Below, in pieces: positions 5,172 to 15,151 of a stretch of DNA of 57,043 nt. This DNA comes from Promethearchaeota archaeon (GTDB taxonomy: Archaea > Asgardarchaeota > Lokiarchaeia > Sigyniarchaeales > SOKP01), in the NCBI GenBank assembly GCA_016839765.1, contig JAEOTP010000064.1, forward strand, positions 1 to 57,043. Direction: 5' to 3'. Each line of letters opens with the position of its first letter. The stretch's first letter is position 1. The position numbers were made by a program, and so were the translations under genes. Below the pieces are notes generated by a model, which had not been told where the DNA came from, did not search any database, and saw only the letters and a program-made list of their open reading frames with translations.

Positions 5172-5609
5172 TTATATAACTTTTAAAGGCCCTAATTCTT
5201 TAATTTGATTCGTAAATTCAGTAATTAAATCCGCGAAGCGCTTGCCTTCTGAAGCACTAACCCATTCTAAACGAACTCTTTTTTCATTAATCCCTAGTTG
5301 TTTTATCACTATTTTATGCAACCTTTCAAATCTTTCTTTAGCATATTCGTTACCTGAGATATAATGACAATCTCCAATATGGCAGCCAGTGACTAATACT
5401 CCATCAGCTCCTTCCTTTAAAGCCTTCATGACAAATACCGGATCTACTCTTCCAGAACACATAACTCTTATAATCCTCATATTGGGAGGATATTGGAACC
5501 TTGAGACTCCTGCTAAATCCGCTCCTGCATAAGAGCACCAATTGCAGCAAAACACAAGTATCTCAGGATTAAAATCTGGATATTTAACTTTAGTTTTTGC
5601 TTTTGGAAT
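5172..5609 (-). CDS. mvhD: MvhD-type iron-sulfur subunit, all-Cys form, probable ATT start
   Basis: MvhD carries a [2Fe-2S] cluster and passes electrons between a hydrogenase or dehydrogenase module and HdrA. The motifs CCNWCSYAGADLAGVSR, CSGRVDP and GCHIGDCHY hold its conserved cysteines. The frame opens after a TAA at 5622-5624. The only ATG/GTG/TTG before the first cluster motif is a GTG at 5555, which would delete the first beta strand (PEILVFCC). An ATT at 5609 has AGGTG about 6-10 bases upstream and gives a normal 145-residue protein, so I prefer it. It begins 21 bases after the stop of the HdrA fusion, in the same operon. It is the Cys counterpart of the Sec-containing protein at 12744-13202. 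Confidence 0.85.
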   Translation of the reverse strand: MPKAKTKVKYPDFNPEILVFCCNWCSYAGADLAGVSRFQYPPNMRIIRVMCSGRVDPVFVMKALKEGADGVLVTGCHIGDCHYISGNEYAKERFERLHKIVIKQLGINEKRVRLEWVSASEGKRFADLITEFTNQIKELGPLKVI

Positions 5610-11128: not shown

Positions 11129-12631
11129 TTATTCTTTTTGTGTTTCTAATATAATAGGTTTACATTTTTTTCTTTTGGATATAGCTATCCTCTCAACAAG
11201 ACCTTGTCCTGGTTTAACTTCCTTCAAATTTTGGTATTCTATCAAGCCAGCATCAACCGCTCCTTTAAAAATTTCTTCTCCTTCTTTTGAACGTGTGATT
11301 ACAGAAGAATAACCACTTTGTGAGCCAATGGAGCCTACTGAAATATCTGCATAGTCTGAGGTTAGATCCTCACAGTAATGACAATTATCTCGTGCATACG
11401 ATTGAACTTCTTTCAAATCTACTGCCAATTCTTCACCTGATTTTAAAGTTATTATGAACTTACCCTTATCTATGTTCATCTTTGTTAATTCATTAATATC
11501 TTGGTTAAATTTATCTTTCGCCAATTTAATGATATCCAAGTAAGAAAATGACTCCATACAAAACAAGCCAACTTTATATTTAATATTTTTAAAGAACGGG
11601 AGTCCACTTGGGAATAGGGTTCCCTTTTCAATAGCTTTCATCATACAAGGAACGCCTACGATTGCAATCTTATTATATTTCTTTGCTTGATCTATAATTT
11701 TTAATGAGGGCGCATTGGCATATTTTGTACCCCCTGTTTTATATAAATCTTTTACATCATCTATTATAATTGGTTCTGGTCTCCATAAATCACTTGAATG
11801 TTGTACTGCTATTATCGCATCTACTAATTTATTCTCTAATAAGTACTCTAATAAAGATGTTACAATACCTCCATCTTGACGCACTTTCTTTATTTCATCT
11901 TTAGTTGTTGTTCCCGTATATGCATTAATATAACCCCCTATTTTTTCAGAGTAAGTCAGTGATTTATCTAGTTTTTTGATACTTTGATAAGCTTGATCAA
12001 TAGAAAAGGAGCGAGGACATACTGTAAAACATAAACCGCATTTCATACAAATATTATCATCGATTTCAAGATTATCTGCTGTTACTTCTATTGCATTTAC
12101 TGGACATACAGAAGAACACCACCCACAATAACAACAGACTCCTGAATCGAATACTATTGAAACTGGTTCAAAATAATGTTCAGTAAAATCATGCGGCACC
12201 TCTTTTACTTGATATCTATAGAAATATTCCTTTTCTTCGACTTCTTTTTCTTCCCCCTTTATTTTTTTTATTACCGTTTTTGTTTTAATTTCGACTTGTT
12301 CTTCAACGTATCCTTGCTCCTTTAAATAAATAACGTCTCGGATTACATTTTCAGCTAGAAAAGCTTTAATACTTTTAGTGATTTCTTCTAAAAATAATGG
12401 TTTTTTACCTCTTAGTTGATCCAAGACTATTTTGCGTTCAGTTTCTGCATCTATCATAGTATCTAGAATTTCATAGAATTCTTGCTCAGAATATTTCCCA
12501 GTTTTTAATATTTCTTCTTTTGCTTCAAAAAATGCTCTAACTTGAAAATTTTCAGAAGCTTTATATGTTGCTTCTAATAATTCCTTAGGAGAAATTCCAC
12601 TAAACAATTTATTATTTACTATTTGAACCAT
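11129..12631 (-). CDS. FrhB-family subunit with about 160-residue helical N-terminal extension
   Basis: The C-terminal 340 residues are FrhB-like. They have two [4Fe-4S] motifs (CCYCGWCSSVC, about 166-176, and CMKCGLCFTVC), then DGGIVTSLLEYL, the GGTKYA loop, GVPCMMKAI and CHYCEDLTSDYADISVGS. The first 160 residues are predicted largely helical and charged (KIKGEEKEVEEKEYFYRY region). They do not belong to the standard family and may be a docking segment. It begins 112 bases after the Sec-containing MvhD and is followed closely by the second FrhB gene. It may link the Sec pair to the Cys-type Hdr operon in one transcript. The ATG start is unambiguous. Confidence 0.85.
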   Translation of the reverse strand: MVQIVNNKLFSGISPKELLEATYKASENFQVRAFFEAKEEILKTGKYSEQEFYEILDTMIDAETERKIVLDQLRGKKPLFLEEITKSIKAFLAENVIRDVIYLKEQGYVEEQVEIKTKTVIKKIKGEEKEVEEKEYFYRYQVKEVPHDFTEHYFEPVSIVFDSGVCCYCGWCSSVCPVNAIEVTADNLEIDDNICMKCGLCFTVCPRSFSIDQAYQSIKKLDKSLTYSEKIGGYINAYTGTTTKDEIKKVRQDGGIVTSLLEYLLENKLVDAIIAVQHSSDLWRPEPIIIDDVKDLYKTGGTKYANAPSLKIIDQAKKYNKIAIVGVPCMMKAIEKGTLFPSGLPFFKNIKYKVGLFCMESFSYLDIIKLAKDKFNQDINELTKMNIDKGKFIITLKSGEELAVDLKEVQSYARDNCHYCEDLTSDYADISVGSIGSQSGYSSVITRSKEGEEIFKGAVDAGLIEYQNLKEVKPGQGLVERIAISKRKKCKPIILETQKE

Positions 12632-12691
12632 ATTTCAATCCATTTCTATCCTTAACTAAAAAATTCAAATTTATTATTAATTAATTTAAAA

Positions 12692-12720
12692 ACCCCCCCT
12701 TTGCAAGGTAAGTCACCTTA
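12692..12720 (-). ncRNA. Candidate structured 3'-UTR element (possible SECIS) after the Sec-type mvhD
   Basis: In the 112-base gap between the two-Sec MvhD gene and the next gene lies the only GC-rich patch, with seven G in a row on the transcript strand. As RNA, 12713 to 12692 can fold into a 9-pair imperfect stem closed by a GCAA tetraloop. An alternative uses the UAAGGU and ACCUUG arms (12720-12704). Archaeal SECIS elements usually lie in 3' UTRs, so the place is right. I could not identify the kink-turn (AUGA/GA) core reported for Lokiarchaeal elements, so this stays a candidate only. Confidence 0.3.
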
Positions 12721-12743
12721 AAACTAAAATTTTATTTTAAGAT

Positions 12744-13202
12744 TCATTCTACGGGAGTAGTTACTACTTTCTTTTTAATAGATTTCATATCCATGGTATT
12801 AATCGGATTTGGTCCCGCCCGCCTTATTTTTTCAAGAGCGTCTTCAACGCTTTTAACTAGTTTTTCAGATTCTGCACCGCTTAACCAGTACATGTTGACT
12901 CTTTGACTTCCAAACCCTCGAGATTCTAAAATTCTATTTGCCAAATCTACATGTCTTTGGGCTGTATAATTACCATTTTTAAATTGACATTCATCAGGTC
13001 TTCATCCAACAACCATAACACCATCAGCTCCAGATTTGATAGTATATAAAATATGTTTCACATCAATCCTTCCAGTACACTTAACTTTGATGATTTTTAC
13101 TGATGGTGTATACTTTAAACGAGAAACTCCAGCCAAATCAGCAGCACTATAACCTCACTTTAAACAAGCAAACATAATTATTTTATAGTTATAACCTTCC
13201 AT
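12744..13202 (-). CDS. vhuD: MvhD/VhuD-type selenoprotein with two in-frame TGA (Sec16, Sec67)
   Basis: Read from an ATG at 13202 with GGAGG upstream, the frame gives a 152-residue MvhD-type electron-transfer protein. Two TGA codons interrupt it, at 13155-13157 (codon 16) and 13002-13004 (codon 67). The contexts are ACLKUGYSAADLAGVSR and GURPDECQF. The Cys paralog at 5172-5609 has CCNWCSYAGADLAGVSR and GCHIGDCHY, so each TGA aligns to a cysteine. VhuD is a known archaeal selenoprotein family. The remaining thiols C13, C42 (CTGR) and C72 are kept. It starts 8 bases after the Sec-containing HdrA and is surely in its operon. The final stop is also TGA (12744-12746), and readthrough there would add only three residues after the recoded codon. 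Sec insertion is inferred, not seen. Confidence 0.88.
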
Positions 13203-13210
13203 TTTGATGT

Positions 13211-15151
13211 TTAACCTCCTTCTAGTAATCCATCTATCTCAGCATATAATTGATAATCACGGTAATAACGAATATCAATAGCTTGTGTAGGACAACAGGT
13301 TGCACATATCCCGCATCCATCGCAATTTATTTCATCAACAACAGCGCCTTCCTCATCGACTATTTTAATAGCCATCTTAGGACATTCTTTTTCACATCTT
13401 CTGCATGAGATACAAAACTCATTATCTACTTCAGCAGTAATAAGCTCAATATCTATCTCTCCTGGGGCTGTTAATTCAGCGACTTTACTCGCTGCTGCTC
13501 TTGCTTGGGATACGGAATAGGCAATGTCCTTAGGACCTTGAGCAAAGCCCGCAATAAAGATACCTTTTGTTTTAGTTTCTTGCGGCATTAAGCCAAAGTG
13601 GGATTCAGTTAGAAATCCATTTCTGTCAGCATCCAAATTTAAGACTTTTACAATTCGTTGTGTTCCTTCAGAAGGTAATGCTGCGGTAGATAACACTACT
13701 AGATCAGCATCTATTTTAATGATTTCATCAGTTAAAGAAGAGTAAACTCTAATTTTAATGTCTTTACTCTCAGGGTCTTCTGAAAATTCACCAACTTTAC
13801 CGCGAATCATCTTAATATCGGAGTCTTTAGCACGCTGATAATATTCTTCGAAACCTTTTTCATTAGTTCTTATATCAATATAGCATATAGTAATATTTGC
13901 GTCTGGAAATTCTTCTTTAAGTAATTTTCCATTCTTTAATGCTAACATACAACAAACACCGCTACAATATGGTCGTTCTGAGTCTCTACTACCGACACAT
14001 TGGATAAAAACGATTTCTTTTGGTTTTTTATTGTCTGATAGGCGCCTTACATGTCCCTCTAAAGGTCCGTTTGGTGCTAGTATTCTTTCTAATTGAGCTT
14101 GAGTTATTACATTTTCGAACTCACCATAACCATATTCACCAAAAGGTTCATAAATATCCCACCCCGTTGCTATGATTATTGTGCCAACTTTAAATTTTAC
14201 CTCTTTAGGTACTTGACTGAAATCTATAGCATCTAATTCACAAGCTTCTATACAGCTAAAACATTCAACGCATGAATCCCTGTTTACATCATACAAAAAT
14301 GGTACTGCTTGACCGAATGCAATATCTATGGCCTTACGAGCGCCCAAATATTCATCAAAATAGTTAGAAGTATAAACGGGACAAACTTCAGCACAAGCTC
14401 CACATCCATTGCAATCTTCATTGATGTATCTTGGTTTCATCTTAACTATTATATTATAATTACCAACATATCCAGAAACCTCTTTTACTTCACTAAAACT
14501 TAGAATCTCTATATTTTCATTTCGATTGACATCTAGCATTTTTGGACCACAGATTCATATAGCACAGTCATCAGTGGGAAATGTCCGGTCTAATTGTGCC
14601 ATTCTACCTCCAATAGTTGTTTTACTATCTACAAGATAAACCTTAATACCTTGATTAGCAAGATCTAAAGCAGCATTCATCCCTGCTATTCCTCCACCCA
14701 CTACCAGTGTAGCTTTTTCAACAGGAACAGTTTTAATTGGCACTATTTCAAGTTGTTTTGCTCGCTCAATCCCACTTTTTACTAAGATTTTAGCTTTGTC
14801 TAAAGCTTCTTCATTCTTTTCTGTACACCAAGAACAATGTTCTCGAACATTAACCATCTGAAAATAGTATGGATTTAAATCGGTTTTGGCGATTGAATCT
14901 CTATAAATCGGTTCGTGAGTACGAGGAGTTCAAGCAGAAGCTACAATACGATTTAATTTCTTCTCTTTGATGTCTTCAATAATCTCGTTTTGACCGCTTT
15001 CTGTTCATAGGAAACTGTGCTGTTTCGAGACAATTACTCCATCGAGTTTTTTAGCAAATTCTACTAGCTTATTGCAATCAACTTTGCCACGAATATTAAT
15101 ACCTCATTGACAAGCATAGTATCCAATCCGATGCATATCAGATTCTTCCAT
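13211..15151 (-). CDS. hdrA: HdrA selenoprotein with four in-frame TGA (Sec16, 49, 74, 199)
   Basis: From an ATG at 15151 to TAA at 13211-13213 the frame encodes a 646-residue, standard-length HdrA. Four TGA codons interrupt it: 15104-15106, 15005-15007, 14930-14932 and 14555-14557. Their contexts are ACQUGINI, SFLUTESGQ, VASAUTPRTHE and DDCAIUICGPKM. The fusion HdrA at 5631-8717 has CHCGINI, YSCSSDSQ, VASCTPRTHE and DCSLCILAPKM, so all four replace conserved Cys ligands. The first three lie in the N-terminal cluster domain and the fourth beside the FAD. The FAD loop GGGIAG is at about 152-157. A ferredoxin insert (CNGCGACAEVC, 247-257) and two C-terminal [4Fe-4S] motifs follow, all with Cys. 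HdrA is a known selenoprotein family in methanogens and Lokiarchaeota. No frameshift is needed to join the pieces. It is the first gene of its operon. Confidence 0.9.

Follow-up and report, generated by a model that had tools for sequence, protein, structure and literature searches.

The adjacent genes hdrA and vhuD, located on the minus strand of the analyzed window (the whole 57,043-nucleotide stretch of Lokiarchaeal DNA), are best explained, with a probability that we put at about 0.9, as a single transcript in which six in-frame UGA codons are read as selenocysteine (Sec), one SECIS element serves both genes, and the UGA in the core of that element acts as a stop codon. According to this reading, the transcript would encode components of a Lokiarchaeal electron-transfer complex of the HdrA/MvhD type, its six UGAs (four in hdrA and two in vhuD) would be decoded as Sec by machinery of the archaeal/eukaryotic type, and all six insertions would be directed by one eukaryote-like SECIS, located where vhuD ends and acting up to about 2.4 kb upstream. 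Of the four conserved cysteines that presumably hold a [2Fe-2S] cluster in VhuD, two would be Sec here; in HdrA, Sec would stand in for conserved cysteines in the N-terminal domain and in the CxxC motif beside the FAD domain. The features concerned are listed in table 1.

Table 1. Features of the hdrA–vhuD region and of the surrounding gene cluster, with their positions in the window
Feature	Position	Strand	Remarks
HdrA	13211..15151	-	four in-frame UGA (codons 16, 49, 74, 199); terminator TAA; directly upstream of VhuD
HdrA codon 16 UGA, predicted Sec	15104..15106	-	
HdrA codon 49 UGA, predicted Sec	15005..15007	-	least conserved of the four
HdrA codon 74 UGA, predicted Sec	14930..14932	-	
HdrA codon 199 UGA, predicted Sec	14555..14557	-	CAIU; site common to methanogens; X in PDB 9sfi_A
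VhuD/MvhD	12744..13202	-	UGA at codons 16 and 67; terminator UGA
VhuD codon 16 UGA, predicted Sec	13155..13157	-	CLKU = CxxU; context ...FACLKUGY...
VhuD codon 67 UGA, predicted Sec	13002..13004	-	GURPDEC; context ...VVGURPDEC...
SECIS element, proposed three-way junction	12689..12761	-	common to both genes; 81.3 bits with model R1, whose training set includes the window
SECIS closing stem, 5' strand ACUCCC	12753..12758	-	within VhuD codons
AUGA of SECIS quartet	12744..12747	-	its UGA (12746-12744) is the VhuD terminator
GA, 3' side of SECIS quartet	12713..12714	-	
SECIS 3' side hairpin	12698..12708	-	CCUU-GCA-AAGG
SECIS closing stem, 3' strand GGGGGU	12692..12697	-	
FrhB-like Fe-S/flavin subunit	11129..12643	-	next after VhuD
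Second FrhB-like subunit	11114-10002	-	
HdrB/HdrC-like protein	9928-8717	-	
Double HdrA-like protein	8729-5631	-	
Cys-only MvhD paralog	5172..5609	-	last gene of the same cluster; no internal UGA

Read on the minus strand from 13202 to 12747 (152 codons), vhuD has TGA at codons 16 and 67, as an earlier note on this DNA had claimed, and its identification in that note as MvhD/VhuD agrees with matches of the translation to PF02662 (FlpD/MvhD/VhuD; 1.6e-43, residues 8–129 on positions 1–122 of 123, that is, the domain at full length) and to the VhuD model NF045873 (1.4e-45). The Cys paralog from which the note had argued does carry cysteines at both sites (FCCNWCSY and TGCHIGDC; read 5609 to 5172). 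In the VhuD/FlpD family, conserved Cys residues ligate a [2Fe-2S] cluster. Four Cys/Sec columns are invariant in the VhuD alignment and all four are present here (C13, U16, U67, and C72), both UGAs falling on two of them; by simple arithmetic, the chance that two random stops in 152 codons would both land on four conserved Cys columns is about 5e-4.

The two UGAs are conserved well beyond this genome. A close ortholog (E below 1e-69) was found in 21 of the 23 same-genus genomes, each with two TGA (21/21). The comparison of VhuD across Asgard and methanogen genomes that the earlier note had proposed gave UGA or Cys codons at these sites in nearly all relatives. At columns 13/16/67/72, Lokiarchaea, Jordarchaea, and a Methanothermococcus have CUUC, two Asgard genomes of the same order share CUCC with some bacteria, Clostridia have CCUC, and the many Cys forms have CCCC. 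More distant relatives have TGA or TGT/TGC at the two sites, the sole exception seen being an additional L155 paralog that carries Ser. Other stops in place of the TGAs, which the note had named as the observation that would speak against it, were looked for, and neither UAA nor UAG was found at the Sec-site columns of any relative compared. In the closest solved structure, PDB 9sfi, chain K has non-standard residues (X), taken to be Sec, at exactly both VhuD UGA positions, and chain A has a non-standard residue (X) only at column 199 of HdrA.

The genome also contains eight PF02662 copies without internal UGA, one of them in the same gene cluster, so that hdrA–vhuD might be viewed as a decaying pseudogene pair disabled by its UGAs, the Cys paralogs of the cluster doing the work. 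We consider this very improbable, because all interruptions are UGAs on conserved Cys columns and persist in relatives with as little as about 50% identity, because a conserved SECIS follows, and because, past the UGAs, changes are far more frequent at third codon positions than at the other two: in 23 comparisons, changes at codon positions 1/2/3 of VhuD number 158/57/570 between the two UGAs and 265/163/746 beyond the second, which indicates that the protein has been selected through both. Two more PF02662 copies of this genome (C35:18970 and C59:58024) have two TGA each.

HdrA matches the HdrA2 model NF040770 (7.9e-231) and PDB 9sfi_A (3e-201), and its four UGAs align with cysteines of Cys homologs. 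The six UGAs that the earlier note had counted in the two genes are all there, within about 2.1 kb, and all lie on conserved Cys columns, in line, for the two in VhuD, with its view that they replace cluster cysteines, cluster ligation itself being a prediction from sequence. The note's further statement that the transcript depends on recoding is a fair one, because HdrA and VhuD can be made in full only if all six UGAs are translated. From our reading of conserved motifs, the first three HdrA sites may be part of an N-terminal-domain cluster. Columns 14/16/49/74/199 of HdrA read CUUUU in nine Lokiarchaeal loci (L076–L084), CUCUU in six other loci (L085–L087 and L090–L092), CUCCU in Jordarchaea and in the two HdrA paralogs of this genome, and CCCCU in Methanothermococcus and Clostridia; the predicted Sec number is thereby a graded series, from one in methanogens and Clostridia to four in this genus, always at the same cysteine columns. 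The Sec-HdrA of methanogens (L152; X in PDB 9sfi_A) likewise has Sec at CxxU beside the FAD domain, and the HdrA of the window is unlike it in having three extra UGAs at conserved N-terminal cysteines. Three Lokiarchaeota families with multiple Sec were reportedly described by Mariotti et al. in 2016, and a multi-Sec HdrA has therefore probably been noticed before. A 2026 review (PMC13188914) gives Sec-HdrA as having one Sec per protein.

The genome encodes a tRNA-Sec (62 bits) with SepSecS as its neighbor (475 bits), a SelD whose gene contains one TGA, and a PSTK-like gene (167 bits, below the curated cut-off), whereas PF21208, used as a probe for EFSec, had no match in any genome, controls included. 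The six UGAs of hdrA and vhuD are thus very probably Sec codons. Many UGA-containing frames do open up if UGA is taken as a sense codon, as they would in any genome, and one could imagine a genome-wide reassignment of UGA to tryptophan or another residue; we give this practically no credence, since UGA often terminates related genes (34 of 60 Cys VhuD), most long ORFs of the window need no UGA readthrough to be complete, and the UGAs align to Cys, not to Trp.

Directly 3' of the VhuD core, the SECIS has the layout AUGA-N-stem-A-rich loop-stem-N-GA, in the window AUGA-A-UCUUAAAA...UUUUAAGG-U-GA, and so contains the quartet of the eSECIS-like working definition (AUGA/[G/A]A quartet, upper stem of 7–15 bp, A-rich loop; PMC11227280). 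In its upper stem, 99.6% of cells are paired and both sides have changed in five of eight pairs. It resembles the type I Asgard eSECIS-like elements in its AUGA...GA quartet, its upper stem of 8–9 bp, its A-rich loop, and its location at the gene 3' end, but differs from published Asgard eSECIS in having a 3' side hairpin and a closing stem, which would make it a three-way junction. An element lying wholly within the last VhuD codons (AUGAAAUCUAU...GUAGAAUGA) was rejected, as relatives conserve the AUGA at 12747, and no other, together with a covarying stem.

The side hairpin and the closing stem were located by a joint search. In relatives, the closing stem takes the forms ACUCCC/GGGAGU, ACCCCU/AGGGGU, AACCCC/GGGGUU, AGCUCC/GGAGCU, CCCCCAU/AUGGGGG, and AACACCCAA/UUGGGUGUU, and the side hairpin elsewhere reads AUCCU-agca-AGGAU, CUCCUG-gcu-CAGGAG, or AACCAU-aaagca-AUGGUU, among others. 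Among 17 representatives less than 70% identical, covariation of the closing stem scored 8.52 with the own partner versus 6.03 (sd 0.37) with permuted partners, and none of 20000 permutations reached the observed value; for the side hairpin alone, 35 of 20000 did. A plain MAFFT alignment gave changes on both sides in 13 of 18 pairs and a covariation score of 0.300, versus 0.161 when shuffled and at most 0.160 when slid. The minimum-energy folds of the relatives have the branched form (z of -2.5 to -5.1 for most, two being weaker). That of the window's own element is not branched (z -1.1), because its G-run permits other pairings, and its branched form rests on the relatives.

With a covariance model made from the VhuD elements, we detected 9 elements at E <= 0.01 in this genome and 3–12 in each genome of the genus; the 14 same-order genomes yielded hardly any (one, E = 0.009). 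The branched shape is also found after VhuU, an HdrA-only gene, and probably SelD of the same genome, and therefore appears to be a general feature of Lokiarchaeal SECIS rather than one specific to VhuD. A review (PMC9499178) describes the Lokiarchaeota SECIS with one apical loop only, a restriction absent from the definition of PMC11227280 and at variance with the covarying side hairpin and closing stem of the element studied here; the literature that we read contains no description of the side hairpin. Methanogen-type SECIS after vhuD are also followed by a second hairpin (CCUCC-uaggc-AGGAGG in L152, a Methanothermococcus; CCCU-aaaugcg-AGGG in L095, Euryarchaeota), which is perhaps homologous to the Lokiarchaeal side hairpin.

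With slightly less than even odds, the full three-way junction (SECIS arm, GC-loop side hairpin, and partly coding closing stem), and not the arm alone, would be the functional unit of hdrA–vhuD and of other Lokiarchaeal selenoprotein genes. To our knowledge, no SBP2 has been found in Asgard archaea, and the junction might offer a docking site where this protein is missing. If the full junction is indeed needed, that need might account for the failure of a lokiarchaeal SECIS in Methanococcus maripaludis (PMC11881835).

The VhuD terminator, at 12746–12744 on the minus strand, is the seventh UGA of the pair. In counts that are phylogenetically non-independent, unique Sec-HdrA genes end in UAA (38) or UAG (7) and never in UGA (0/45), and Sec-VhuD genes end in UGA in 35 of 53 cases (UAA 13, UAG 5), whereas UGA terminates 7 of 14 HdrA and 34 of 60 VhuD among the Cys controls. 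In Lokiarchaeal Sec-VhuD, the UGA terminator is nearly always that of the SECIS core. The simplest account, we infer, would be that terminators far upstream of the SECIS avoid UGA, which would be recoded there, and that a UGA inside the SECIS, such as the VhuD stop, is not recodable, probably because a ribosome arriving there unfolds the element; the hdrA stop overlaps the vhuD ribosome-binding region, which could also favor UAA. The presence of a UAA three to four codons downstream in many relatives (UIL-stop, UFL-stop, UVL-stop) would also suit a last UGA that encodes Sec, yielding a short C-terminal -UILK tail and seven Sec per transcript. We hold this to be unlikely, as the tail tracks the SECIS stem and not the protein (a stem-pair change turns UAA into CAA and leaves the frame open in L044, L056, and L063) and as several relatives (L049, L058, L059, and L065) have an earlier UAA or UAG stop.

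The cluster between 5172 and 15151 has the order HdrA-VhuD-FrhB-FrhB-HdrBC-HdrAA-MvhD, which points to a large electron-bifurcating complex that would contain two flavin subunits of the FrhB type and two kinds of MvhD, one with Sec and one with Cys. Two of its ORFs were discarded as selenoprotein candidates: in the FrhB-like ORF next to vhuD, the TGA at codon 3 precedes the likely start (ATG GTT CAA), which is conserved in relatives, and in the HdrBC-like ORF, the TGA at codon 401 is the terminator.

Genes preceding the other SECIS-model hits of the genome were also read for UGA. One of them, outside the window (G000:C12:3643-3834, +; L213/L157, with relatives L214–L232), encodes about 64 aa with a basic N-terminus and one apparent transmembrane span, ending in ...DNINGGGUPCPSFF..., where a Cys follows GGGU within a few residues. 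Its relatives, read in 17 Lokiarchaeal genomes, have 60–70 residues and a single UGA each, which lies in GGGU, and their AUGA-type SECIS is positioned at -1 to +17 nt relative to the stop; in an alignment of ten (30–38% identity to the copy of this genome), only M1 and GGGU are invariant. The Gly-rich GGGU is reminiscent of eukaryotic SelenoK/SelenoS, from which the family differs in its likely topology (N-in, Sec outside). With no Pfam match above cut-off and no counterpart in the seven selenoprotein families that PMC11227280 gives for Asgard archaea, these proteins apparently form an undescribed family of predicted membrane selenoproteins, which may be a more novel result than hdrA–vhuD. Further observations are a short VhuU-like ORF (VRCFDCULSCAAH; G000:C46:21315-21546, +; L161) after a large-subunit ORF, that is, a split hydrogenase, with a branched SECIS and a UGA terminator as in Methanococcus VhuU; a Sec-HdrA (CAIUVLAP; G000:C33:15773-17344, +; L159) with its own branched SECIS and no VhuD directly behind; and a hypothetical protein with two consecutive UGAs (VGCUUEKV; G000:C20:10364-10881, +; L162) before a 33-bit SECIS match, which had no match in Pfam and is a possible new selenoprotein candidate. 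Weak SECIS matches were found at G000:C96:50770-50848 (L163; 32 bits) and G000:C64:41229-41285 (L164; 24 bits), the latter of which follows a predicted UGA-containing membrane protein (GIAUDSF) and folds into a clear three-way junction.

Part of this picture is already published: a two-Sec VhuD (PMC13188914, Table 1; for M. maripaludis, PMC9622424) adjoining a Sec-HdrA, one eSECIS-like structure common to the adjacent hdrA and frhD (PMC11227280), and a stop UGA that overlaps the SECIS core, which is not new either, since PMC11227280, citing Mariotti 2016, already notes it. The VhuD of the window shows no essential difference from the known Sec-containing FrhD/MvhD/VhuD (PF02662) of Methanococcales and Asgard, which share its CxxU motif, its two Sec, and its Sec-HdrA neighbor (PMC13188914, PMC9622424, PMC11227280), and its relatives are plentiful, from 92% down to about 50% identity. 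Possibly new are the branched SECIS, the terminator asymmetry, and the explicit one-to-four HdrA series. This series would constitute a natural record of stepwise Cys/Sec exchange at conserved iron-sulfur cysteines. A single archaeal SECIS that apparently serves six Sec codons in two cistrons while its own UGA is spared would offer a natural test of SECIS range and of the confinement of recoding. Finally, the branched SECIS provides a testable hypothesis for how Asgard archaea may recruit the Sec machinery without SBP2, a step towards the eukaryotic system.
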